DNA of 25,659 nucleotides from a virus, in IMG/VR virus record IMGVR_UViG_3300030116_003392, positions 1 to 25,659 of that record, one strand, 5' to 3'. Below, one piece after another: positions 1,206-22,674 of this stretch; position 1 is the first letter of the stretch; the number at the start of each line of letters is the position of its first letter. The notes beneath the pieces are model-generated. The model was given only the letters and a program-made list of their open reading frames with translations. It did not search any database and was not told where the DNA came from. A program made the position numbers and the translations under genes.

Positions 1206-1588
1206 TGCTACGCGCTCCACAATATAGACGGCGGCGGCACAACCGCCGTCGCCTGTTTCTTGCAGACCAGATTGCCATTACATATCTGAAACCAGACGCA
1301 AGAGAAACAGTTAAACCACCTTGGCAAAAAGGATACTCGAAACAATTCTCTTTAGAACACGCCGCCCGGATGATAGCAACACAGACGCAAGTGCCTGTTT
1401 GTGGATGTTGTGGCGAAGACGCAAGCACTGTCTTTGAAGCAATCGCTATGATCTACACAAAAGGCGAACGCCCGCTATGCGATACTTGCTGGAAGATACA
1501 AGGTACTGAAAACGCAAGTGGCACAATAGGCTGGATGTATTACCGCTATCACCGCAAAAAATCATTAGAAGAAGAAGAAAGTATTTGA
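1205..1588 (+). CDS. Hypothetical protein with CxxC zinc-ribbon-like pairs
   Basis: This 127-aa protein begins with a strikingly arginine-rich segment (YRRRRHNRRRLFL). Its central region has two Cys pairs, CGCC near residue 62 and CDTC near residue 92, spaced like the halves of a treble-clef or HNH-type zinc ribbon. No His-Asn-His catalytic set is evident, so a nuclease is not claimed. The C terminus is Glu-rich. A GC-rich hairpin (1228-1251) lies inside the first codons. The ribosome site is weak (GGAGG is about 27 nt upstream), so expression may rely on the TAATG overlap, or the true start may be further in. Confidence 0.55.
   Translation: MLRAPQYRRRRHNRRRLFLADQIAITYLKPDARETVKPPWQKGYSKQFSLEHAARMIATQTQVPVCGCCGEDASTVFEAIAMIYTKGERPLCDTCWKIQGTENASGTIGWMYYRYHRKKSLEEEESI
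1228..1251 (+). promoter_or_regulatory. GC-rich hairpin within 5' end of the 1205 gene
   Basis: GACGGCGG and CCGCCGTC form an 8-bp inverted repeat around CGGCACAA. It lacks a following T-run, so it is not a canonical terminator. It begins 23 nt after the ATG, where a stable stem can hinder early elongation or cause transcription attenuation. Confidence 0.5.
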
Positions 1589-1613
1589 CTATTCCCCACG
1601 AATAGTTCAATAT
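1585..1613 (+). promoter_or_regulatory. Putative promoter (TTGACT-ATTCCCCA family)
   Basis: TTGACT at 1585-1590 is followed 17 nt later by CAATAT (1608-1613), a poor -10. The -35 and the adjoining TTCCCCA are shared with the stronger promoters at 3052 and 4602. The downstream gene also shares a leader (ACAGAAAGGTAAA) with the gene at 3105. The shared context supports it more than the -10 does. Confidence 0.4.
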
Positions 1614-1659
1614 TGTTTTGGGTAATGTTGCCCAAGTCACCAACAGAAAGGTAAATCAA

Positions 1660-2031
1660 ATGTTGGCATTTTTAATCAACCCGACGACGGAGACAATCGA
1701 AGTTGTCGAACACGATGGAGACTACAAGAACATTCAAAAGCTAATTGGAGCTAGTTTGTTCACAACAGTTTGCATTAAATATGACGAAGACAAAGGCGTA
1801 TCCACTGATATTTATGTGGACGACGAAGGCATGTTAAGCCTTACCGCCGATACCAAGTTTATCAAATTTGATAACTACCCGTACCCACTAGCAGGTAATG
1901 GTCTTGTTCTCGGATGTGATGTTGAAGGTGAGAGTATTGCGCCGATGATTAGCAAAGAAGAACTAGAAGATAGTGTATCCTTTATGGATTTCTTTGAAGT
2001 TCGTGAACTTGCAATGAAGGAGGGCATATAA
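1660..2031 (+). CDS. DUF3846-like phage protein
   Basis: This 123-aa acidic protein has the pattern seen in DUF3846-type phage proteins: an N-terminal strand with an INP motif, a central IYVDDEGML, then a FDNYPYPLAGNGLVLGCD segment near residues 69-86. The function of that family is unknown. The start at 1660 follows AGAAAGG, and the longer frame from 1618 lacks such a site. The gene follows a putative TTGACT promoter and overlaps the next start (TAATG). The family assignment is pattern recognition by eye and would need a profile search. Confidence 0.6.
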   Translation: MLAFLINPTTETIEVVEHDGDYKNIQKLIGASLFTTVCIKYDEDKGVSTDIYVDDEGMLSLTADTKFIKFDNYPYPLAGNGLVLGCDVEGESIAPMISKEELEDSVSFMDFFEVRELAMKEGI

Positions 2032-2585
2032 TGGGAATGGACGTTTATGGATTAAACCCCGTTCTGAAAGGAGCTAGACCAGAGATAGACTGGTCTAGCA
2101 ACCCGTCAGAAGAAGAGAAACAAGCATACTTTGCCGCAAACGACGCATGGCATGCTGAAAATCAAGGCGCATATTTTCGTAATACCGTCTGGTATTGGCA
2201 TCCATTGTGGGAGTTTGTCTGTATTGCTTGTGATGATGTTCTTTCCGAAGAAGCAAAACACAAAGGCACTTTCAATGAGGGTTACCAATACGACGCAGAA
2301 ACCGCGTTAATAATAGCGGACAGATTGAAAGAGGCGTTGGAAGGCGGTAGCGTTCAAGTATACGCCGAGCAACGTCAAGCCCGTCTTGATAGCTTGCCTC
2401 TTGAAACTTGCAACTTGTGTAACGGCACTGGTGTTCGTGATGACGAATATGTGCAGGGCAAGTGCAATGGCTGTGATGGCACAGGCAAGGTCAAAAATTG
2501 GGACACGCACTACCCCTTTGATGCTGGCAACGTGAAAGAGTTCGAACAATTCTGCCGCCTGTCTGGTGGTTTCGAAATTTGCTAA
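2031..2585 (+). CDS. Phage protein with C-terminal DnaJ-type zinc finger
   Basis: This is a 184-aa protein. The N-terminal 110 residues (MGMDVYGLNP at the start, then YFRNTVWYWHPLWEFVC) match a conserved phage family of unknown function that I have seen in other phage genomes. Residues about 126-152 carry two CxxCxGxG repeats (CNLCNGTG and CNGCDGTG), the hallmark of the DnaJ central zinc-binding domain. Only two of the four repeats of true DnaJ are present, enough for one zinc site. There is no J domain, so this is not a complete Hsp40. AAGGAGGGC precedes the ATG, and a terminator follows 20 nt after the stop. A nucleic-acid or protein-binding adaptor role is an inference. Confidence 0.75.
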   Translation: MGMDVYGLNPVLKGARPEIDWSSNPSEEEKQAYFAANDAWHAENQGAYFRNTVWYWHPLWEFVCIACDDVLSEEAKHKGTFNEGYQYDAETALIIADRLKEALEGGSVQVYAEQRQARLDSLPLETCNLCNGTGVRDDEYVQGKCNGCDGTGKVKNWDTHYPFDAGNVKEFEQFCRLSGGFEIC

Positions 2586-2604
2586 TCCTGTTGGTGGCAG
2601 GTGG

Positions 2605-2635
2605 GAGGGCGGCACTTCGGTGCTGCCCTCTTTTT
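2605..2635 (+). terminator. Intrinsic terminator with TTCG tetraloop
   Basis: The arms GAGGGCGGCAC (2605-2615) and GTGCTGCCCTC (2620-2630) pair over 11 bp with a single G-U wobble around a TTCG loop, followed by TTTTT (2631-2635). This is a textbook rho-independent terminator, ending the unit that starts at about 1660. Confidence 0.93.
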
Positions 2636-2651
2636 CAGAAAGAGGATAGAT

Positions 2652-2963
2652 ATGACACCCGAAGAAATTAAAACTTTAAGACAAAGCATGGTAAACACCA
2701 AAAACAGCAAAGCACCAAGCCAAAGAACATTTAGCGTTTTTTTAGGTTTTGGAACGGCAACGATAGCTCGTTACGAGTTAGGTTATAAACCTCAAAAATC
2801 GCATGAGATTATTCTTAGAAAGCTTTCTATTGATCCAAAGTTTATCCACGATATTTCAGAGTGGAATAAAGAAAGCTCCAACCACAAAAACGATTTTGAT
2901 ATTGTTCCTAATTGGGAACGCCTTGCAAAACTAAAATTACAGAAAACTTTGTTCCCTGCGTAA
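2652..2963 (+). CDS. Helix-turn-helix DNA-binding protein (XRE/MqsA-like)
   Basis: This is a 103-aa protein. Residues about 23-45 (SQRTFSVFLGFGTATIARYE) read as the helix-turn-helix of the XRE/Cro fold in the variant used by MqsA-type antitoxins and related regulators: residues 5-10 form helix 1 (EIKTLR) and 'IARYELG' closes the recognition helix. The remaining 45 residues are Lys-rich and may form a C-terminal helix. The ATG at 2652 is preceded by AGAGGATAG. No toxin partner is adjacent, so a phage regulator is more likely than a toxin-antitoxin pair. The gene follows directly on a terminator, and its promoter was not identified. Confidence 0.65.
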   Translation: MTPEEIKTLRQSMVNTKNSKAPSQRTFSVFLGFGTATIARYELGYKPQKSHEIILRKLSIDPKFIHDISEWNKESSNHKNDFDIVPNWERLAKLKLQKTLFPA

Positions 2964-2992
2964 ACCCCAGGATCAAGCTGCAGAAATCGTTT

Positions 2993-3051
2993 CCGGGGCG
3001 GCGGCCCCGGGCGGCCCGGATCCCGGAGACGCAAGAGACGCAAGGCGCAAG
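2993..3051 (+). repeat. GC-rich island A with GACGCAAG repeats
   Basis: After a long run of C and G (2993-3027, including GGCGGCCCCGGG) come two perfect GACGCAAG units (3028-3035 and 3037-3044) and a variant GGCGCAAG (3044-3051), directly abutting the promoter at 3052. The same order of parts recurs at 3397-3458 (island B). The composition differs strongly from the neighbouring AT-richer genes, which suggests an inserted or duplicated element. Confidence 0.75.
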
Positions 3052-3079
3052 TTGACTTTTCCCCAGGGAAAGTTATAAT
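3052..3079 (+). promoter_or_regulatory. Strong sigma70-type promoter
   Basis: TTGACT (3052-3057) and TATAAT (3074-3079) are separated by 16 nt. The -35 matches at five of six bases and the -10 is perfect. TTTTCCCCA follows the -35, as at two other sites. It drives the gene at 3105, whose leader contains AACAGAAAGG. Confidence 0.85.
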
Positions 3080-3104
3080 GAAGTATTAACAGAAAGGTAA
3101 ACAC

Positions 3105-3326
3105 ATGACAGCATATAATGGACACAGATCCTGGAACGCCTGGAACGTAAGCTTATGGATTAATAACGACGAAGGTCTTTATTTTCGAGCACGAGACCTG
3201 GTTAAAGAACACGGCATAACGAAAGCCGTCAGGCTTCTTCTGGAAGAATTACCCGCCACCACCCCAGACGGCGGACGCTACAATAAAACTTGCGTCCACG
3301 AAGCAATCAGAGATATACTAAACTAA
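3105..3326 (+). CDS. Conserved phage hypothetical (NDEGLY motif)
   Basis: This 73-aa protein contains the W-N-V-x-L-W-I-x-N-D-E-G-L-Y pattern near residues 13-26. I recognise that pattern from a widespread family of small phage and bacterial proteins of unknown function, usually starting with a YNGY or NGH segment, which is present here as YNGHRSWNAWN. No catalytic motif is evident. The start follows AGAAAGG and a strong promoter, and a terminator begins 17 nt after the stop, so this is a single-gene transcript. Such strongly expressed stand-alone small genes are often early host-interaction factors, which is inference. Confidence 0.75.
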   Translation: MTAYNGHRSWNAWNVSLWINNDEGLYFRARDLVKEHGITKAVRLLLEELPATTPDGGRYNKTCVHEAIRDILN

Positions 3327-3342
3327 TCCCTCCCTGGATACT

Positions 3343-3383
3343 GAGTCCGCGACTTCGCACAATGGTCGCGGGCTCTTCTTTTT
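3343..3383 (+). terminator. Intrinsic terminator
   Basis: GAGTCCGCGAC (3343-3353) pairs with GTCGCGGGCTC (3365-3375) over 11 bp with one wobble around an 11-nt loop. TTCTTTTT follows. It ends the monocistronic unit starting at 3052. Confidence 0.88.
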
Positions 3384-3396
3384 CCAGGCCCGGCTG

Positions 3397-3458
3397 CCCC
3401 GGACGGCGGCCCCGGGGACACCCGGAGACGCAAGACGCAAGGAGCCGCAAGACGCAAG
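3397..3458 (+). repeat. GC-rich island B with GACGCAAG repeats
   Basis: CCCCGGACGGCGGCCCCGGG leads into CCCGGA and three GACGCAAG units (3427-3434, 3434-3441, 3451-3458), with a variant AGCCGCAAG between. It mirrors island A in order and sequence. Further units follow at 3528-3535 and 3542-3549 inside the end of the nuclease gene on the other strand. No plus-strand gene is supported here, and the plus-strand frame over 3290-3640 is judged spurious. Confidence 0.75.
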
Positions 3459-3520
3459 TAAAAACAATGACTTACAAAAGAACGATAATGCTGCGCGCAG
3501 CACCCGGTACCTGGCCCGGA

Positions 3521-3907
3521 CTATTCAGACGCAAGGCGCAAGACGCAAGAAACACAGTCCGCAAGACTCGAACCGTGATACATGGGGCTGGTTTCCAACC
3601 CTTTTTCGTGCAAATCGAGGCTTTGACCGCCGCCAAATAAAAATACATCGCCCTTCGAGGGGCGTGAAACTAAGAAAAAATTTTTACCACCAGCAAGAGA
3701 ATACTCATAATTCCATGCAATTTGAGCAGGACGTAGGTCAATTCGGTTAGCTTTTGCTATCTTTAGTTCCAACCAGAAGGCTGACCCGTTATATGCAATA
3801 TGACTATCTGGAATACCTACGCCGACAGTATTCTCAATCCTTGTCGTGTGTGATTTGGGCGGGAGTTCTTTCTTTACTTGTTTCCACAATCTCTGTTCCG
3901 GTGACAT
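3521..3907 (-). CDS. VRR-NUC-type PD-(D/E)xK nuclease
   Basis: This 128-aa protein has the core of VRR-NUC nucleases: R23-x-E25-N26 followed by GIPD (D34), then E47-x-K49 (WLELK) and Q62, the metal-binding and catalytic set of the PD-(D/E)xK fold. Family members cut branched or flapped DNA, and stand-alone phage versions are thought to act as junction resolvases in replication or before packaging. The start at 3907 follows AGGG. It overlaps the end of the terminase gene by 74 nt, so they are coupled. The last residues (VLRLASE) are encoded by GACGCAAG-type repeats read on the opposite strand, so the C terminus may be a late addition. Confidence 0.82.
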   Translation of the reverse strand: MSPEQRLWKQVKKELPPKSHTTRIENTVGVGIPDSHIAYNGSAFWLELKIAKANRIDLRPAQIAWNYEYSLAGGKNFFLVSRPSKGDVFLFGGGQSLDLHEKGLETSPMYHGSSLADCVSCVLRLASE

Positions 3908-4403
3908 CCCTGACGTTCCCTTCGATAAAAGCAGATGGATATTCGTTGCGTAATTTTGAAAGACGTTCGGCTATTTCTTCTCGTGACATATTATCAATAG
4001 AATGTATGTGCTGGTTTTCACGGCGGTCTACAGTAAGACCACCAAGTGATGACCTAATCTTTTCAGCATTGATGGCGGCAGAGAATTGTCCTTCTTCTTC
4101 GGCTGATCTAGAGAGTTCTGATAATCTTTGAAGCTGACCTATCAGCGTGACACCATATTTCTTTTCTCGTTCTTCTCGTAACTCGGTGATATGCTGTGTG
4201 ACCAAAGGATAATCTTTGCCATTTAACAAACGGGAAGCATGAACATTCGCACTTTCTTTTGCGTACCCAGCCCGCCTAGCACATTCTGCATTGGAATAAA
4301 TACCTTCAATATAAAGTTTAGCAAACTCTCGTTGTCTGTTTGTAAGATAACGACCTTCGTTTTCTATATCTTCTTTAGATTTATTTTCTTTTATCTCTGA
4401 CAT
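3834..4403 (-). CDS. terS: Terminase small subunit
   Basis: This is a 189-aa protein. Residues about 20-62 (LTNRQREFAKLYIEG, then AECARRAGY and ASRLL) match the N-terminal helix-turn-helix of Terminase_2-type small subunits, which recognise phage DNA and load the large subunit for packaging. The middle is a charged helical segment (ELREEREKKYG) suited to oligomerisation, and the C terminus is acidic and probably flexible. AAAGGAT precedes the ATG. No large subunit is adjacent, as the downstream partner is the VRR-NUC nuclease. Separation of the small subunit from the head genes is unusual but occurs in phages. The assignment rests on the N-terminal pattern and length. Confidence 0.78.
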   Translation of the reverse strand: MSEIKENKSKEDIENEGRYLTNRQREFAKLYIEGIYSNAECARRAGYAKESANVHASRLLNGKDYPLVTQHITELREEREKKYGVTLIGQLQRLSELSRSAEEEGQFSAAINAEKIRSSLGGLTVDRRENQHIHSIDNMSREEIAERLSKLRNEYPSAFIEGNVRDVTGTEIVETSKERTPAQITHDKD

Positions 4404-4601
4404 TTCTATCCTTTTGACCCATTAGAAGTGTATACTATGTATCCTATATGTATTCTCTAGATGTAATAAAAACAATGCTTTAGTATACAAGTATACAGAT
4501 ATACATTAGATACACTGTAAATGAAAAAAATTTACTAAACATTTTTAAATCTACAGAGAGTATATGCTGTATTATTTTTCAGCACTTTCCCAAATGATTT
4601 G

Positions 4602-4630
4602 TTGACTTTCCCCAAATAAAAATAGATAAT
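4602..4630 (+). promoter_or_regulatory. Strong promoter for the early small-gene operon
   Basis: TTGACT (4602-4607) and GATAAT (4625-4630) are separated by the optimal 17 nt. The -35 matches at five of six bases and the -10 at five of six. TTTCCCCA follows the -35, as at 3052 and 1585. It reads into the run of genes from 4682. Confidence 0.8.
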
Positions 4631-4633
4631 ACA

Positions 4634-4658
4634 TACGCCTGATTATACGGGCGTTTTT
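4634..4658 (+). terminator. Weak leader hairpin with T-run, possible attenuator
   Basis: ACGCC and GGCGT can pair over 5 bp around about ten bases and are followed by TTTTATT. It lies between the promoter at 4602 and the first gene at 4682, so it could attenuate transcription of the early operon. The stem is short. Confidence 0.35.
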
Positions 4659-4681
4659 ATTAACTTTCAACGAGGTATAAC

Positions 4682-4900
4682 ATGACTATAGAAAGCACCG
4701 AGGTTCACGAACCAAGTGACGCTGACATTGACGACATGAGAATACACATGACGTTGCATGATTTGCGTGGCTTGATTGACATGAACTTATCCATTCAAGA
4801 CGTGAACATAATCATATCGGCACTTGAGCCGATACACATGGCTTTGACCAGCAAGATTACTGTGTCCGGCGATGTTGAAGAGGAGTCACAAGATGATTAA
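4682..4900 (+). CDS. Small very acidic protein, first of early operon
   Basis: This 72-aa protein has Asp and Glu throughout and only about three Arg/Lys residues, which makes it strongly acidic. Acid-rich runs (SDADIDDM) occur near the N terminus and at the end (EEESQDD). The middle is a probable helix with regularly spaced hydrophobics. AACGAGG lies upstream of the ATG. It overlaps the next gene by 8 nt. Small acidic early phage proteins sometimes mimic DNA and block host nucleases or RNA polymerase. This is a general analogy and no such family was recognised here. Confidence 0.6.
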   Translation: MTIESTEVHEPSDADIDDMRIHMTLHDLRGLIDMNLSIQDVNIIISALEPIHMALTSKITVSGDVEEESQDD

Positions 4901-5174
4901 AGGCGTATTCAAAATAAAGGAATTGATTGAGAAGCTAGAGCAGTTTCAATCTGATGAGAGCGTTGCGCTGTATTTGGTTGACGAGGCTGATGTCCACAAG
5001 TGGAACACTGAAGCGAGTGACATCATGTCGATGGACTTGGGTTCGTTTGTCGATGCGCTTGATGAGGGCATGGTCAAATGGATAGACGAGGACGACGAGT
5101 TTGATTTGACCCCTAGCTGTGTCAACAAGATATTGGATTGGTATCCGCCGAGTTGGGTTGGAGGTAAATACTGA
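4893..5174 (+). CDS. Small acidic protein of unknown function
   Basis: This is a 93-aa protein. The ATG at 4893 is chosen because it follows GAGGAG at the right distance, and the longer frame from 4872 runs back into the previous gene. It is acidic, with an initial amphipathic helix (IKELIEKLEQF) and a tail rich in Trp/Pro (WYPPSWVGG). The N-terminal IKELIEKLE plus D-x-x-V pattern resembles small phage proteins sometimes annotated as unknown, and no domain is claimed. The stop overlaps the next start (TGATG). Confidence 0.6.
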   Translation: MIKGVFKIKELIEKLEQFQSDESVALYLVDEADVHKWNTEASDIMSMDLGSFVDALDEGMVKWIDEDDEFDLTPSCVNKILDWYPPSWVGGKY

Positions 5175-5320
5175 TGTGGGACGATGAATTTATCAAGGCG
5201 GTCTACGAGATTGCTTTTGGCGAGAACGCCATTCACCGAGGATTTACATACGAAGAGGTCTTAGACCAACTCCGTGAGTTCTCAGACAAAGCCCTGATAT
5301 GGGAGGAGAACCAATCATGA
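5174..5320 (+). CDS. Micro-protein (48 aa), acidic
   Basis: This 48-aa ORF begins at the ATG overlapping the previous stop (CTGATG) and ends in ATGA with the next. Start MWDDEFIKAVYEIAFG; end WEENQS. It is probably helical. Its last five residues, EENQS, and the underlying bases are repeated exactly at the end of the next gene. Coupling on both sides, and the absence of any gap it could otherwise fill, support it as a real gene. Function unknown. Confidence 0.6.
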   Translation: MWDDEFIKAVYEIAFGENAIHRGFTYEEVLDQLREFSDKALIWEENQS

Positions 5321-5463
5321 AGGATATTACTACGAAAGATTTTTATGAGTGGCTGGATACCTACCCCAGCGATGTAATCAAGTGGGAAGTCGTGGACGTT
5401 CACGAAGGCTTACGAGTCGTTAATTTCTATGTAAGAGAAGACGAGGAGGAGAACCAATCATGA
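5317..5463 (+). CDS. Micro-protein (48 aa), acidic
   Basis: This 48-aa ORF is coupled at both ends by ATGA overlaps. GGAGGAGAACCAATC lies immediately before its ATG, and an almost identical string lies before the next gene's ATG. The protein starts MKDITTKDFYEWLDTYPSDV and ends EDEEENQS. The F-Y-E-W-L-D-T-x-P pattern resembles small phage proteins of unknown role. It has the same length and same terminal residues as the preceding gene but little other similarity, so this looks like a shared junction rather than a full gene duplication. Confidence 0.6.
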   Translation: MKDITTKDFYEWLDTYPSDVIKWEVVDVHEGLRVVNFYVREDEEENQS

Positions 5464-5645
5464 CTATGACAATGAAAATATTAGTGACCGGAAAGGTTTC
5501 TCGACAGGTATTAGTCGAGGGCAACAGTGTGGCAGAATGTGAAGCAAATGCGATAACCGAGTGGGCGGCATTGACGGGCGGTGATTACACCACCGCAGAG
5601 CCTAAAGTCGGTGTTGTGATGTCAAAGGAGACGCAAGATGATTAA
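5460..5645 (+). CDS. Hypothetical small protein
   Basis: This is a 61-aa protein. The GGAGGAG ribosome site and the ATGA overlap support the start, and the repeated MTMTM leaves the exact first Met uncertain. The pattern (VTGKVSRQVLVEGNSVAECE, then a helix with AITEWAAL) suggests a small beta-beta-alpha fold like those of short phage proteins with DUF-type annotation. It ends SKETQDD, nearly the same as the ESQDD ending of the gene at 4682, and its stop overlaps the next start by 8 nt in the same manner. Confidence 0.6.
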   Translation: MTMTMKILVTGKVSRQVLVEGNSVAECEANAITEWAALTGGDYTTAEPKVGVVMSKETQDD

Positions 5646-5817
5646 ATATAACGTAGGACGTATTCAACATTTTAAGGAATACATAATAGTCGAGGCTTCT
5701 TCAGAAGACGAAGCTTTCGACAAGCTTAGAGACGAGATAGATATTGGTGAGCGATTGAACCACGTTTATTTCGAGGGTGATGGTGAGTTGGTTTGTGTGG
5801 AGGTGAAAGATGACTAG
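5638..5817 (+). CDS. Small acidic protein (59 aa)
   Basis: The ATG at 5638 lies within GACGCAAGATG, 8 nt into the end of the preceding gene. The protein (MIKYNVGRIQHFKEYIIVEA, then SSEDEAFDKLRDE) has a strand-strand-helix-strand pattern typical of a small ferredoxin-like or swapped-hairpin domain, ending in EVKDD. It is similar in layout to its two neighbours (a signal-like strand, then an S/D-E-D-E-A helix), which suggests they could be distant paralogues. Function unknown. Confidence 0.55.
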   Translation: MIKYNVGRIQHFKEYIIVEASSEDEAFDKLRDEIDIGERLNHVYFEGDGELVCVEVKDD

Positions 5818-6079
5818 ATACAGAGTAGTGAGAACAGTTGAACTAAACACAAGTTACTATGTTGATGTTGCTGATGACGTGGACGTACAACAACTAGCGG
5901 ACATGAACCCAGAATATGACGGGTTGGATATAGAGTATGTTTACGAAGATGATGTTACAGATAGCTACACGGCGGTCATTTTCGAGGTTAAACCAGACGC
6001 AGACCCGAAAAAGTCTTTTTATGAAAACGATGGCAAGCAAGTCTACCATCATGAATGGGAGTCACAAGACTATGAGTGA
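5810..6079 (+). CDS. Small very acidic protein (89 aa)
   Basis: The gene overlaps its neighbour by 8 nt (ATGACTAG). The protein starts MTRYRVVRTVELNTSYYVDV, followed by a D-rich segment (DVADDVDVQQLADMNPE) and a second strand pair (YVYEDDVTDSYTAVIFEV). The order strand, acidic helix, strand resembles the gene at 5638 and supports a shared small fold. The C terminus, ESQDYE, again carries the junction motif seen at 4883 and 5629. Net charge is strongly negative. No family recognised. Confidence 0.6.
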   Translation: MTRYRVVRTVELNTSYYVDVADDVDVQQLADMNPEYDGLDIEYVYEDDVTDSYTAVIFEVKPDADPKKSFYENDGKQVYHHEWESQDYE

Positions 6080-6260
6080 GGACGTAGAAAAGACATTGGT
6101 CTATATCCGTGAGAGTAGAATAGGCGAAGCAGAAATGTGTGTTAAGACGGACGGCAGTTTTATTGCCGTCCCGATTACACAGAGGCAACTGATCAACATC
6201 ATCACAGGCGCAAGCGAAATACTTGCTCGTGACATACAAAGACGCAAGGAGGTTCACTGA
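6072..6260 (+). CDS. Hypothetical small protein (62 aa)
   Basis: The ATG at 6072 sits inside the end of the previous gene, after GTCACAAGACT. The longer frame from 5937 is in the shadow of that gene and is rejected. The protein has a short beta-like half (TLVYIRESRIGEAEMCVKTD) and a helical half (QRQLINIITGASEILARDIQ) ending in a basic tail. No domain is recognised. A very good AAGGAGG for the next gene is embedded in its last codons, preceded by GACGCAAG. Confidence 0.6.
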   Translation: MSEDVEKTLVYIRESRIGEAEMCVKTDGSFIAVPITQRQLINIITGASEILARDIQRRKEVH

Positions 6261-6261
6261 C

Positions 6262-6462
6262 ATGTCATTTGAAAAATACATAGAGGAAAAAACACAAGAG
6301 TATAAACGTGGCAGAATCAGACGACGAGAAAACCTTGTTATAGTTATTGGAAATGACACTCAATCTACGCAGGTAGGTTACACGAAAGGAAAAAGTTTCA
6401 GTCCTCTGGTTAAGCATAAGAGGAACTTTCCTCCTATTTTTATTAAATGGAGAAAAGCATGA
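6262..6462 (+). CDS. Small basic protein (66 aa)
   Basis: The ATG at 6262 follows a perfect AAGGAGG (6246-6252). Unlike its acidic neighbours, this protein is basic, with clusters of Arg/Lys (YKRGRIRRRENL and LVKHKRNF) and a Lys/Arg tail. It may bind nucleic acid. No structured domain is recognised. It overlaps the next gene as ATGA. Confidence 0.6.
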   Translation: MSFEKYIEEKTQEYKRGRIRRRENLVIVIGNDTQSTQVGYTKGKSFSPLVKHKRNFPPIFIKWRKA

Positions 6463-6647
6463 AAGATACAAATCAACTGACAGAAGGTTTAAGTGCCATT
6501 TGGCATGCACTACAAGCCTATCGTGAGGATTTAATATCTGAAGGTGAGGAAATGCATGACAAAGAATGGGATGAAATCTGCACGGCTATGGCTCACATTC
6601 ATGAGGCACTAGACATAAAGCATGAGGAAATTAAATGGGTAAGATGA
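6459..6647 (+). CDS. Small acidic helical protein (62 aa)
   Basis: The start at 6459 overlaps the previous stop (ATGA) and follows GGAGAAAAG. An ATG four codons earlier (6447) is also possible. The protein is almost entirely helical by composition (SAIWHALQAYREDLISEGEE, then DEICTAMAHIHEALD) and acidic, with several His residues. This helical-hairpin pattern is common in small phage proteins of unknown function. Confidence 0.6.
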   Translation: MKDTNQLTEGLSAIWHALQAYREDLISEGEEMHDKEWDEICTAMAHIHEALDIKHEEIKWVR

Positions 6648-6665
6648 GAAAAGGAGAGCATACGA

Positions 6666-7007
6666 ATGTTAAATATTAAACACGACTACAAGGGGTATGT
6701 GTATATACCCGAAGAAGACAACGACGAGGACAACGTAAAGATTAAGCATGTCATTTGGTTTGGTAATAGAATCAAGTTTCACGATACGAGTCACTCGCCC
6801 TACTCAGTCATGTCACGAAGTGATTTCGAAGAGTTCATCAACTCACACATCGAGAGGCGCATGAAGCGGTTGATGGAAGTAAAGTCATTGCTGCTTGAAC
6901 AGTCGGTTGAGTTATCCATGACGGGCGGTTCTGATGAAATGGCAGAGAAAGTTGAAAGGTGCACACAAATACTAGATGAATTATACGAAGAAGAGAGGGG
7001 CAGATAA
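6666..7007 (+). CDS. Hypothetical protein with C-terminal coiled-coil
   Basis: This is a 113-aa protein. AAAGGAGAGC precedes the ATG. The N-terminal half has Tyr-rich beta-like segments and an acidic loop (PEEDNDEDNVKI). The C-terminal half, from about residue 55, is a continuous charged helix (RRMKRLMEVKSLLLEQ and AEKVERCTQILDELYEEE) likely to form a coiled coil and an oligomer. The stop overlaps the next ATG (TAATG). Function unknown. Confidence 0.65.
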   Translation: MLNIKHDYKGYVYIPEEDNDEDNVKIKHVIWFGNRIKFHDTSHSPYSVMSRSDFEEFINSHIERRMKRLMEVKSLLLEQSVELSMTGGSDEMAEKVERCTQILDELYEEERGR

Positions 7008-7348
7008 TGGGCGAAGTAATAGATTTCAAGACGCAAAAACCTGCTGGCACTTACACGGCAGATCAGATTCGAATTGTCCCGCTTTCAGAAAACATGAAGC
7101 CGACCAAAGACCCAGACAACACAGTCTGGTGGGGCATAACGTTGTTTACGCAGTATGACGACGGGCGACGGAAGTCGAATAATTTAGCGTTGTATCAGGC
7201 AAGGCTAGTTGCGGCGTATGAAATGATGTCATACGCGGTTCGAGGTGCGTTAGTAATGGCGCACGACTTGGACGTACCAATCGACTCTGACCAAGATTTT
7301 CTTATCGAGTCAGATATTTTAGAGAAAATGATAAAGGAGACTGAATAA
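7007..7348 (+). CDS. Hypothetical phage protein (113 aa)
   Basis: Coupled to its neighbours by TAATG overlaps on both sides. The N terminus, MGEVIDFKTQKP, resembles the IDF-x-x-K starts of several small phage proteins. The middle contains WWGITLFTQYDDGRRKS, and a helical segment (ARLVAAYEMMSYAVRGALVM) follows, then an acidic tail. No catalytic motif or membrane span was recognised; the helical segment is too polar to be a clear span. Confidence 0.62.
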   Translation: MGEVIDFKTQKPAGTYTADQIRIVPLSENMKPTKDPDNTVWWGITLFTQYDDGRRKSNNLALYQARLVAAYEMMSYAVRGALVMAHDLDVPIDSDQDFLIESDILEKMIKETE

Positions 7349-7560
7349 TGGCAGTGATGGGCAGACCAAGAAAATTTGGCAAAACAACTACTTTTGGGTT
7401 TGACCTAGATGTGTCTATGAAAAAGGACATCGAGGCAATCACAAAGAAACTTAACAAGGAGGAGGAGCGCAAGTACAGCAAAGGTGACTGCATCCGATTA
7501 GCCTTGCAGTATTGGATGGATAGTGGCTATCCTATAGATTGGAGCAAAGAAAAGAGGTAG
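7348..7560 (+). CDS. Ribbon-helix-helix-like DNA-binding protein with GRPRK start
   Basis: This is a 70-aa protein. An AT-hook-like GRPRK lies at residues 5-9. It is followed by a strand (TTTFGFDLD), a Lys-rich helix (SMKKDIEAITKKLNKEEE) and a second helix (SKGDCIRLALQYWMD), the order expected of the MetJ/Arc ribbon-helix-helix fold, in which dimers insert a beta strand into the major groove. It is probably a regulator within the early operon. A second such protein is encoded on the opposite strand at 7721. The fold is inferred from the pattern. Confidence 0.65.
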   Translation: MAVMGRPRKFGKTTTFGFDLDVSMKKDIEAITKKLNKEEERKYSKGDCIRLALQYWMDSGYPIDWSKEKR

Positions 7561-7563
7561 CAA

Positions 7564-7794
7564 ATGGCAAAGCGGTTTTCACCTTGGTCAGTAGCCAAAG
7601 AACGCCTTTGGTCACGAAACACTAAAACGGAAAGCACACGGGAGCCGTGTGACCCTGTGACTTGCTCAGAGTGTCCCGGCGGTCCGCTGTGTTGTACTTA
7701 CACGCAAGAAGACGCAAGGTCTATCGACTACGACTACTCGCATAATCAGATGTATCGGGCTCGGGGACACCAACGCCGATACTTCCTTCCATAG
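7564..7794 (+). CDS. Cys-rich small protein
   Basis: This is a 76-aa protein. Residues about 29-45 carry five or six Cys in a tight cluster (CDPVTCSECPGGPLCC), suited to binding zinc or an Fe-S cluster. The rest is basic and Tyr-rich (RARGHQRRYFLP). Only 3 nt separate it from the previous stop, so it is co-transcribed. Its last 74 nt overlap, tail to tail, the end of the RHH gene on the other strand. It contains a GACGCAAG unit at 7711. No known family is recognised. Confidence 0.55.
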   Translation: MAKRFSPWSVAKERLWSRNTKTESTREPCDPVTCSECPGGPLCCTYTQEDARSIDYDYSHNQMYRARGHQRRYFLP

Positions 7795-7921
7795 TTTCCT
7801 GTTTCACGAGCCATGTTAATTGTCTCGCAACACTACGTTCATTCTTCTCAGCCATGTCTTTAAGAACATGATATGTGCTGAGAGGAATGGAAACAGTGAT
7901 AAAATTTTTATTCTTCGACAT
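7721..7921 (-). CDS. Ribbon-helix-helix (Arc/CopG-like) regulator
   Basis: This is a 66-aa protein. Residues 6-41 (strand FITVSIPLSTYHVL, then helix LKDMAEKNERS and helix VARQLTWLVKQE) match the Arc/CopG ribbon-helix-helix pattern, with the T-V-S-I-P strand that reads DNA bases in this fold. The start at 7921 is preceded by GAAAGGAAAAATT, and the longer frame from 7963 lacks a ribosome site. The C-terminal 20 residues are Gly/Pro/Ser-rich and disordered. It lies downstream of the SNF2 helicase on the same strand, about 175 nt away, and probably regulates phage promoters nearby. Confidence 0.72.
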   Translation of the reverse strand: MSKNKNFITVSIPLSTYHVLKDMAEKNERSVARQLTWLVKQETMEGSIGVGVPEPDTSDYASSRSR

Positions 7922-8096
7922 AATTTTTCCTTTCAAAGTGAGTTGCGAAAATTTACCACCCATTAAGATTAAGCCGACAATGGCTTGACCTACTTTTGCA
8001 GCCTGTTAAATACCAGTGGGGAAGCCACGCAGTAGGCATCTTCGCATTGTCTTCGGTGGACTCTTCACCACCGCCAAGGTATACCAGTCAGCCCCC
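7922..8096. other. Intergenic spacer between helicase and RHH gene
   Basis: No gene is supported. On the minus strand it contains a 6-bp stem (CGGTGG and CCACCG at 8054-8073) just after the helicase stop, without a T-run. A run TTCGCAACTCACTTTGAAAGG leads into the RHH start; it may contain the RHH gene's own promoter, but no clear -35/-10 pair was found. Confidence 0.4.
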
Positions 8097-9536
8097 TTAT
8101 ACCTTCAACCATTCCCGCATTTGTTCGCCTAACGAACGACCTGCAAGATTGATTTTGTTTCGTAATGCTTTGACGATGTGTTCGTCAACGCTATCTGGAA
8201 CCACCAAATCAATATATGTGACAGGGTTTTTCTGTCCGATCCGGTGGCATCTGTCCTCTGATTGGACACGATGTTCAAGATTAAAGTTATTCGAATAGTA
8301 GATGACATTACTAGCTGCCGTCAGCGTCAGTCCAAATCCAGCAGTCTGTGCATTGCCTACAAAGAAACGTAGTTCGGACTCTGGGTTTTGAAAGTCCTCG
8401 ACGATGCGTTCACGTTCTTCGTCTGATGTGCCGCCGTAGTATGAACCCGTGCTACTATTGCCATACTTCTTTTTCAGTGCAGACTCGATGCGCCTGATGT
8501 CCTCAACAAAACGTGCCCAGATGATTACCTTGCCGTCAATTTCTTCGATAGCTTCCATCATTGCATCGACACGATTATTTGCGATGTCAGTCAGAACGTC
8601 ATTGACAGGTAGATACCCGCACAGAACTTGCTGTAATCGTAGTAGCTGTGACATAGCCTCAGTCGCAGATACAACTTCGTCGTCAACAATCGTCATGGCA
8701 ATCTCTTTGAATGACGTGTAGTGCTTGCGTTGTTCGTCTGTCATGGACACATAACGCACAGTGTATGTCTTCTCTGGTAAATCTAGGCAGTCTTGTTTGA
8801 GCACTCGTGTAGAAAAATTTTTTAGCTTCATTGCTAACTCCTCAATGTGTCTATATCCGACAATCATATCAAACGAATGATTGCCCATCTTTTGTCGCCG
8901 GGTTATGGCGTATCGGGCTTGGAAACTCCAGTAATTCTCGTGACCCAAGAGCCCAGGATCGAGGAACGCACACTGTGAATATAAGTCCATAGGTGATTGC
9001 GTCACCGGGGAGCCCGTCAAGATTCGACGATAATTGAAATCCTGACCAAGTGATATGATTGACTTGGTGCGTTTAGCTTTGTGGTTCTTGATAGTTGTAG
9101 ACTCGTCCACGGCTATCATGTTTATCTCTGGGTAGCTACGAAACTTTCCGTAATACTCTTTGAACTTCTTTGTGATGACAGCTTCGGTGTTTACAATCAA
9201 TATCCGTAGTCCGTCTTCATACTCACATGCTTCGACAAGTTCTTCGACTTCGTGTTTGCGAGGTGAAGACCGCCAAGTAAATACTTTGTGGGGTATTCTA
9301 TCCGGCATGTGTGCAGGTATTTCTTTCAGCACCCAGTTTCGATATACGCCCTTCGGTGCAATGACAACCAGAGTTCTGAGGTTACGATTCTCGTAAAGCC
9401 ATGCGGCATTGTCGATAAGAACCTTCGACTTACCGCACCCCATTTCCATAAAATACGCCCACTCGCCAACGTTGCGAGAGTTCTCGAACGCTTGACGTTG
9501 ATGTTCGTATGGTTCTGTTTTATAAATATATGTCAT
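8097..9536 (-). CDS. SNF2-type SF2 helicase/ATPase
   Basis: This 479-aa protein has the SNF2 helicase motifs in order: the ATP-binding motif I EMGCGKSK (31-38), motif II DEST (144-147), motif III TGSP (174-177), and motif VI QSEDRCHRIGQ (425-435), which is nearly diagnostic of SNF2 family members. The N-terminal PYEHQRQA is the Q-like motif. It is a minimal phage version with no extra domains. Such proteins translocate on dsDNA and remodel protein-DNA or replication structures, and they are common in phages with family A polymerases. It is read opposite to the replication operon, from a promoter overlapping that operon's own. Confidence 0.93.
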   Translation of the reverse strand: MTYIYKTEPYEHQRQAFENSRNVGEWAYFMEMGCGKSKVLIDNAAWLYENRNLRTLVVIAPKGVYRNWVLKEIPAHMPDRIPHKVFTWRSSPRKHEVEELVEACEYEDGLRILIVNTEAVITKKFKEYYGKFRSYPEINMIAVDESTTIKNHKAKRTKSIISLGQDFNYRRILTGSPVTQSPMDLYSQCAFLDPGLLGHENYWSFQARYAITRRQKMGNHSFDMIVGYRHIEELAMKLKNFSTRVLKQDCLDLPEKTYTVRYVSMTDEQRKHYTSFKEIAMTIVDDEVVSATEAMSQLLRLQQVLCGYLPVNDVLTDIANNRVDAMMEAIEEIDGKVIIWARFVEDIRRIESALKKKYGNSSTGSYYGGTSDEERERIVEDFQNPESELRFFVGNAQTAGFGLTLTAASNVIYYSNNFNLEHRVQSEDRCHRIGQKNPVTYIDLVVPDSVDEHIVKALRNKINLAGRSLGEQMREWLKV

Positions 9537-21354: not shown

Positions 21355-22674
21355 CTAACTCCCAGCCGGATTATTCTCTCCAGCAGCAATCATTTCTTCT
21401 GCCATTTCCTGAAGTTTACTAGGCGGTGGATTCCGCCGTAGTAGGGCTCTTCGGTTCTGTGGGTTTGGTGTAGACAGTCTTGTCAATGCTTTTTGTGCGC
21501 TTTCTTGAACTCTTAAATTTTGTCTTTCAATTATACTGTCGATATAATCTATATCTCCACCTGCTTGTAATGTTTCCTGTTTTTTATTTGTCATAGCTTG
21601 CAGAGATTTGACTTCTCTCCTCACGATAGGATCTTGTTCCATCAAACTAAGGATTGTCTCGTCAGTAATAGCGGTTATTTCTGTGCCACCACCTGTGCCG
21701 CCGTCTCCACCGTCTCCACCGTCTCCGCCATCACCTGTGCCGCCGTCTTTACCATCTCCGCCATCACCTGTGCCGCCGTCTTTACCATCTCCGTCACCAT
21801 CTGTGTTGTTTCCAAGTACGTCTCTTTCAATATCTAACAACTGTAAAGTAGGACTAAAAATATATTGATCGCCGTCAAAATTAGTTTGGAAACCTGTGAT
21901 CTGACCTTTGTCGTTTTTCTTTGCAACAAAACCAGAACTAGTAGCATAATCTGCTATAGTCCGTGCTCGCGTTCCAAATGCGTCATCTTTTGGTGCTTGA
22001 TTTAAAATTGTTAAAACTTTGTCTAGTGGGTTTACGTCAGGATCTCGCATTAGTTTAACGGCTCGTGACTCTGCATCCGAGCTTAATTTGTTAAAAGAAG
22101 ATTGGAACGTGTCTAGTGTCTTTTTGTCTGCTCTAGACATAAAGTCACTTAAACCACTATATGTAGCTTTGCCTTTGGTAATACTTCCGTCTGCGTTTAA
22201 AACGGCTCCAGCGGCTGAAAGAGCGTTTCTTTGATCGCTAGTAAAACGATCTTGTATTGCTTTGGCTCTTGTTCGTCGTATAGTCTCGATGTCTACTTGT
22301 CCTTTTAACGCTGCAAGTTTTCGTGCTTCTTCTTTTTCTCTTCGTTTAGTGGCTTGGGAAAAAGCTCCTGTAAGACCAGCGATAGCGGCATCTGTTTTTC
22401 CAAGTTGAGGATTGGTTAAGGCAGACGTAGCCATGTTGATACCCAAGTCAGTTAGGAAGTTTCCTGGTGTTTTTCGACTTGCTTGCTCCAACAACAGTTT
22501 TTCATACTCGGCTAGAATATCACGTTCAGTCACCGCATTGTTAACAGATCCACCAATATTCATACGAACAGGCTCGACTTGATTCATCAGTTCTTGTGAT
22601 GACGCAAGGATACCAGCGGCTTTACGAGCAGAGCCGGGACGACGAAACATTCTACGATTTGAACCTTTAACCAT
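21355..22674 (-). CDS. Virion protein with Gly/Asp-rich repeat linker
   Basis: This is a 439-aa protein. The N terminus is basic (RRMFRRPGSARKA). Residues about 55-120 have the pattern NFLTDLGINMATSALTNP then a charged helix (KRREKEEARKLAALK), seen in phage structural proteins. Residues about 285-330 are almost all Gly and Asp with Lys/Thr (GDGGDGKDGGTG), coded by 33-nt direct repeats. The C terminus has a Lys/Gln-rich coiled-coil-like segment (MTNKKQETLQ). The linker is probably flexible and could bind Ca2+, as Asp-Gly repeats often do. It lies in the tail/ejection part of the late operon. AGAGGA precedes the start. Exact role unknown. Confidence 0.6.
   Translation of the reverse strand: MVKGSNRRMFRRPGSARKAAGILASSQELMNQVEPVRMNIGGSVNNAVTERDILAEYEKLLLEQASRKTPGNFLTDLGINMATSALTNPQLGKTDAAIAGLTGAFSQATKRREKEEARKLAALKGQVDIETIRRTRAKAIQDRFTSDQRNALSAAGAVLNADGSITKGKATYSGLSDFMSRADKKTLDTFQSSFNKLSSDAESRAVKLMRDPDVNPLDKVLTILNQAPKDDAFGTRARTIADYATSSGFVAKKNDKGQITGFQTNFDGDQYIFSPTLQLLDIERDVLGNNTDGDGDGKDGGTGDGGDGKDGGTGDGGDGGDGGDGGTGGGTEITAITDETILSLMEQDPIVRREVKSLQAMTNKKQETLQAGGDIDYIDSIIERQNLRVQESAQKALTRLSTPNPQNRRALLRRNPPPSKLQEMAEEMIAAGENNPAGS
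21694..21800 (-). repeat. 33-nt tandem repeats encoding the Gly/Asp linker
   Basis: On the plus strand CCTGTGCCGCCGTC begins 33-nt units at 21734 and 21767, each followed by TTTACCATCTCC and so on. Shorter CCGTCTCCA triplet repeats lie around 21706-21725. On the coding strand each unit adds 11 residues (GKDGGTGDGGD). Such arrays change length by slippage, so strains should differ in linker size. Confidence 0.85.

Follow-up and report, generated by a model that had tools for sequence, protein, structure and literature searches.

A directional 7-bp word in the early region of an uncultured phage: possible binding sites for a phage protein

The window and its early region

The stretch of DNA analysed here, called the window below, comprises 25,659 nt of an uncultured phage and is the IMG/VR virus record IMGVR_UViG_3300030116_003392. 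It carries repeated copies of the octamer GACGCAAG, almost all on one strand of the first 8 kb, and this report concerns that word, its counterparts in related phages and the protein that might read it. The window encodes a family A DNA polymerase, an SNF2-type helicase, an AEP-type primase and a UvrD-like helicase, and likewise proteins of the Pam3 gp33 and gp34 families. No near DNA relatives of the window were found among the cultured phage records; the best cultured-phage matches of its polymerase were Pelagibacter phage HTVC023P and phage DSL-LC04, with about 50% identity.

The first 8 kb consist of small early genes on the plus strand. The exceptions on the minus strand are terS, encoding the terminase small subunit TerS (3834-4403; PF03592, E 5.8e-10; phrog_51, E 1.4e-17), and the gene that overlaps it at 3521-3907. 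The latter encodes a phrog_2165 protein of 128 residues, for which 'DNA helicase' is a family label; it had no Pfam match, and judged from its sequence it contains a motif that looks like a VRR-NUC type nuclease. The terS gene lies several kb from the left window edge, and the early genes in between point the opposite way. In the relative L103, a late minus-strand gene taken for terL seems to end at the position of this left edge.

Copies of the octamer and their number

An earlier note on this DNA had listed 14 plus-strand copies of GACGCAAG. All 14 positions were exact, and a single minus-strand copy was found (3289-3296), located in the DUF7249 gene of 73 residues at 3105-3326. The word read backwards did not occur in the window. 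The promoter-side array at 3028-3051 has three units on the plus strand, GACGCAAG-AGACGCAAG-GCGCAAG, and four units in most relatives. The terS-side cluster on the same strand has four CGCAAG units at 3427-3458 and four more at 3528-3565, the latter antisense over the 3' codons of gene 3521-3907. Three plus-strand copies lie within the open reading frame (ORF) 1205-1588, at 1295-1302 (read as D-A-R), 1384-1391 (in another frame, read as T-Q) and 1418-1425 (read as D-A-S), together with the variant AACGCAAG at 1511-1518; in this ORF the base ahead of the core alternates between A and G, as it does in the spacers. The note had also placed two copies at translation starts, which was confirmed: the one at 5630-5637 (plus strand) is flanked by an AAAGGAG ribosome site on one side and by the ATG at 5638 on the other, and the one at 6241-6248 (plus strand) overlaps an AAGGAGG ribosome site and is kept in the close relatives, clade A. 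A further plus-strand copy is part of the coding sequence of ORF 7564-7794 (7711-7718). The isolated late-region copy at 22601-22608, on the plus strand and antisense to gene 21355-22674, may be a chance occurrence.

The Markov expectation for GACGCAAG was between 0.32 and 1.7 (orders 0 to 4) and was 0.64 at order 2, so that the count is far above chance; in the window no other octamer was over-represented as significantly (Poisson p 1e-14, order 2). Since the copies are clustered in tandem and group into nine clusters spaced by more than 60 bp, part of this count is non-independent. All of the enrichment fell within the first 8 kb, where 13 copies stand on the plus and one on the minus strand; the other 17.7 kb had one and none, respectively. 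When synonymous codons were shuffled, 0.51 copies were expected in the early coding sequence, where six are present (p 0.001), and 0.21 in the late coding sequence, where there is none. Codon usage does not account for the count, and the word as a by-product of it was excluded. Neither of the two outcomes that the earlier note had named as refuting, a chance-level count and an origin in codon usage, was seen. Nor can the protein sequence be the explanation, because the coding copies occupy more than one reading frame. Among the 20 titles listed of 495 papers matching GACGCAAG, no phage study of the word was evident.

A 7-bp unit and its conservation

Across eleven relatives, the CGCAAG cores of the early region were most often 7 bp apart (56 cases, every other spacing accounting for at most nine), and the base preceding the core was mostly A or G. 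From this we conclude that the octamer is one view of a heptamer, RCGCAAG.

In clade A, where TerS is 92-100% identical, the arrays are retained and units are gained and lost; orthologous arrays have three or four units in varying order. One relative has the same array within an unrelated GC-rich spacer, with eight extra bases ahead of the promoter. In two orthologous modules, 63 of 72 columns of the CGCAAG core were invariant, as against 227 of the 363 other columns. Within genes, all 11 codons whose third base falls inside a copy were unchanged; outside the copies 506 of 865 were unchanged and 359 changed (p 0.004). The layout of the window is also found in lineages B, C and D (TerS 63-72%). 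In group E (GC content about 33%), the terS-side cluster is likewise built of RCGCAAG, and the place of the GC-rich spacer is taken by CGGTCAT and TTAACATGTTAA words. Many TTAACATGTTAA palindromes and CGGTCAT words were noticed in the array-bearing spacers of six low-GC relatives. The CGCAAG core was kept among relatives whose surrounding spacers are wholly different and whose genomes have 30-51% GC. In 17 records, CGCAAGNCGCAAG was found 29 times on the early strand and never on the opposite one. Relatives retrieved by the 73-residue DUF7249 gene alone were mostly without arrays.

Promoter-side arrays

The array at 3028-3051 abuts the -35 box TTGACT at 3052, which belongs to a sigma70 promoter on the plus strand (TTGACT-16-TATAAT, 3052-3079). 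It has 11 of 12 matches and is the best such promoter on the plus strand of the first 8 kb. When IMG/VR was searched for two units followed by a short gap and a promoter, only 11 contigs were returned, all of the present phage group. In lineages A-D, 6 of 13 array blocks were followed by TTGAC at a distance of no more than 30 bp, compared to 0.62 expected (p 1.5e-5), and the blocks without TTGAC were all on the terS side save one array in lineage C. The earlier note had considered transcript processing as a role for the word. Since the promoter arrays precede the -35 box and hence are not part of the transcript of their own promoter, this is less likely for them. The spacer between the -35 and -10 boxes of promoter 3052-3079 contains the dyad TTTCCC-CA-GGGAAA. 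Dyads at this place are a feature of early promoters of the group (TTTCCCCAGGGAAA, TATCCCATGTTATGTGGGATA, TATCCATTGGAATA), noticed at 3052-3079 and 1585-1614 of the window and in three relatives; the dyad looks like a separate operator.

The terS-side cluster and the words of other lineages

In the window, the eight units of the terS-side cluster (3427-3565) lie at the 3' end of the minus-strand pair of the phrog_2165 gene and terS, and this position was the same in every lineage examined in detail. As group E had been located through the word itself, a wider set was retrieved by TerS alignment only, and the words were counted in the 450 bp that follow the neighbouring gene at its 3' end. At these TerS-selected loci CGCARG occurred 209 times on the early strand and three times on the other. 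The 80 loci were classed as CGCARG (42), CCCGA (13) or other (25), several of the last being incomplete or without the neighbouring gene.

In the CCCGA lineages, CCCGAA and CCCGAC had 123 copies on the early strand, compared to 21 on the opposite one, also with a modal spacing of 7, and their genomes have further clusters of their own word at one or more other places. The words do not mix: CGCARG was at background in the CCCGA lineages (14, 13), as was CCCGAM in the CGCARG lineages (27, 35). Lineages with a TerS identity of at least 59% had clusters of the CGCARG or CCCGA type, and the terS-side spot of the group with at most 41% often carried CAAGC words. In five records of this more distant group AAGCAAGC was strand-biased, with 10:2, 11:4 and 10:2 copies in three of them and, on the other contig strand, 8:2 and 11:1 in two. 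Two records contained tandem CAAG repeats (CAAGCAAGCAAGC), one set of which overlaps a ribosome site before an ATG. The genomes sharing a main word span a GC content of about 0.32-0.46 or 0.30-0.51. Around its helix-turn-helix, TerS differs between the CGCARG and CCCGA lineages, along the tree.

Proposed binding sites for a phage protein

Because other lineages have a different word in the same places, the strings look like protein binding sites, and the fixed strand, the fixed places, a single word per genome and the conserved core form the pattern expected for the sites of a trans-acting protein. We therefore favour, tentatively, the view that each copy represents one unit of a directional recognition word of 7 bp, RCGCAAG, which is read in the early region by a putative phage-encoded DNA-binding protein. 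Such a protein would bind adjacent units cooperatively. Its role would be the control of early transcription at the promoter arrays and the marking of a site for packaging or DNA processing at the terS-side cluster. The earlier note had suggested either a phage-encoded recognition element or a decaying repeat family. The former, at the DNA level, fits the conservation of the core and of synonymous sites, the fixed strand and the place beside terS; 'decaying' is not borne out, as few columns are kept as well as those of the CGCAAG core and it is the flanks that turn over.

A phage-encoded reader seems more likely than one of the host, with genome GC taken as a stand-in for the host, since the word follows the kinship of TerS and not the GC content. 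TerS itself appears to be the best-placed candidate because its gene adjoins the most widespread cluster, a proximity that is to be read with the selection of the loci by TerS. The other candidate is a small ribbon-helix-helix protein of the CopG type (7348-7560, plus strand), which would fit only some lineages, clades A-D. It was favoured at first because its orthologues match RHH_1 above the cut-off and because the omega protein of plasmid pSM19035 reads contiguous promoter heptads (PMC9499535). In the PDB, CopG and ORF56 were its counterparts. Its predicted model was poor (pLDDT 62). A second small protein, Arc-like and with a weak phrog_3180 match, is encoded at 7721-7963 on the minus strand and occurs also in relatives without CGCAAG arrays.

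Several observations weigh against the proposed binding sites. The reader protein is still putative. The ribbon-helix-helix protein had no match in 12 other array-bearing or related records, which are partial; it is thus unsupported as a general reader unless it is replaced there. Promoter linkage was seen only in lineages A-C, and a general sigma70 score for the clusters away from terS in 12 lineages gave a combined p of 0.07, so that universal linkage is unsupported beyond these three. The word classes were defined after the data had been seen, and although they changed 13 times on the TerS tree, compared to 25.1 times with shuffled labels, such clustering would also result from plain inheritance. 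Finally, unrelated bacterial genomes have more than 115 stretches with (RCGCAAG)3 arrays, which means that such arrays can arise without the present phage, and heptamer repeats are generally over-represented in bacteria, with slippage proposed as their origin (PMC4692102).

Alternative explanations

These bacterial arrays, for which only about one stretch was estimated by chance, also speak for a different explanation, that the units are lineage-specific heptamer repeats which were expanded by slippage and copied between spacers without any reader. The word would then be present at many sites by copying, and its strand would be fixed by duplication of whole spacer modules. The differing copy number and unit order of orthologous arrays agree with this, as do the further repeated words in the array spacers. 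It does not explain why the core is kept when the spacer is replaced, why copies within genes are conserved at synonymous sites, why the arrays adjoin promoters in A-C, why the word is identical in genomes of 30% to 51% GC, or the strand bias of 209 to 3 at a single orthologous spot. Overall, we consider such an expansion rather unlikely.

In each of the lineages studied in detail, the cluster adjoins the phrog_2165-terS pair at its 3' end, and it could also be a pac-like packaging initiation site bound by TerS, possibly together with the phrog_2165 protein, the other copies being secondary. The type of word tracks TerS identity, and the surroundings of the TerS helix-turn-helix differ between the CGCARG and CCCGA lineages; but these differences follow the tree, so the covariation is not independent. 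From what the sequences suggest, the pac-like role is a serious rival, yet it leaves unexplained why copies are spread over 6 kb, in promoters, at ribosome sites and within genes, and some of the TerS-selected loci have no repeated word. As the primary role of the word it appears unlikely, a little more so than expansion without a reader. A host signal of the Chi type, that is, a host-specific directional word which halts or redirects the host nuclease at DNA ends, would likewise be octamer-like and strand-biased, lie inside genes in any frame and differ between phage lineages. The restriction of the word to the early region and its arrangement in 7-bp arrays do not agree with such a signal, and a single host lineage is hardly expected for phages of such different GC content. 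We regard it as very improbable.

A switchable address word

A wider and more doubtful extension of the binding-site reading is that the phages use a switchable DNA address word: directional, mostly of 7 bp, placed at the terS side and at early promoters, identical throughout a genome, swapped as a set between lineages (RCGCAAG, CCCGAM, AAGCAAGC) and co-evolving with a reader such as TerS. If this were true, each lineage would mark its own DNA. In the protein that reads the word, the residues in contact with DNA are expected to differ along with it. A few phage groups are known to have directional short repeats, mostly with no function assigned. In the present group the place and the strand stay constant and the word does not, so that a repeat of vague meaning becomes a system for comparison. 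It could show whether these phages label their DNA as their own, be it for packaging or for early transcription.

Relation to known repeats

The asymmetric repeated sites, oriented with transcription, resemble the stoperators of mycobacteriophage L5. L5 is temperate and its stoperators are 13-bp repressor sites, whereas the present 7-bp word has no repressor assigned. Like a pac site, the cluster is situated beside the gene for the terminase small subunit.

Among phage repeats, the nearest parallel is SAS (Start-Associated Sequences, SAS/ESAS) of the cluster K mycobacteriophages, a short asymmetric repeat with 11-19 copies per genome in the non-structural gene region (PMC3203893), whose function is unproven (PMC3203893, PMC12699233). 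The present repeat is likewise short, asymmetric, located among non-structural genes and of nearly one orientation (14 to 1; arrays 29 to 0). SAS has a single 13-bp consensus, GGGATAGGAGCCC, a few bases from start codons (PMC3203893). In contrast, the word here is GACGCAAG or RCGCAAG, only the copies at 5630 and 6241 stand at a ribosome site or start, and the word forms tandem arrays and varies with the lineage.

The omega (ParB) heptads of pSM19035 are contiguous, non-palindromic 7-bp repeats that overlap promoters and are read by a ribbon-helix-helix protein; their arrays have 7-10 WATCACW units in mixed orientation (PMC9499535). Our units share the contiguous, non-palindromic 7-bp form, but their words are RCGCAAG, CCCGAM or AAGCAAGC, and the ribbon-helix-helix protein is limited to clades A-D, as described above.

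Among bacteria, intergenic heptamer repeats are known as TAACTGA in Beggiatoaceae (PMC4679880) and GGGAATC in Xanthomonas (PMC4692102), with two to six tandem units, mostly forward to the downstream gene, and a copy number that changes in 7-bp steps. The orthologous phage arrays, with three or four units, vary in the same way as this class (STRR/SSR). Against the expectation for the class, the unit is under conservation, as core columns and synonymous sites are above their surroundings in a modest sample. The TAACTGA direct repeats are the closest bacterial phenomenon and lie just before start codons; the phage arrays lie upstream of promoters and beside terS, and their word is switched between lineages. 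Neither SAS nor TAACTGA matches in sequence or place. The present case is one of directional short repeats in phages with a word that varies by lineage. Outside the phages, (RCGCAAG)3 arrays were seen in bacteria and archaea of many unrelated kinds; genomes of Calidithermus, Balneolaceae and Akkermansiaceae each had several loci.

Other features of the window

A plus-strand gene at 3468-3640 was dropped since the minus-strand gene 3521-3907 accounts for the conservation of its frame. A hairpin at 3649-3664 was wrongly taken for the terS terminator; it is located within the same minus-strand gene. No known RNA families were found in the first 8 kb. The small gene at 2652-2963, which by eye looks like that of an XRE-type regulator, is present or absent among close relatives, with breakpoints directly after a terminator and ahead of a GC-rich spacer. 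Some relatives have a cytosine-methyltransferase-like gene in the early region (L103, about 6045-6651 in reverse orientation; L450, about 8100-8900), which the window does not have. In the late region, the minus-strand gene 21355-22674 contains 33-bp tandem repeats at 21685-21805 and likely encodes a repeat protein of the virion.

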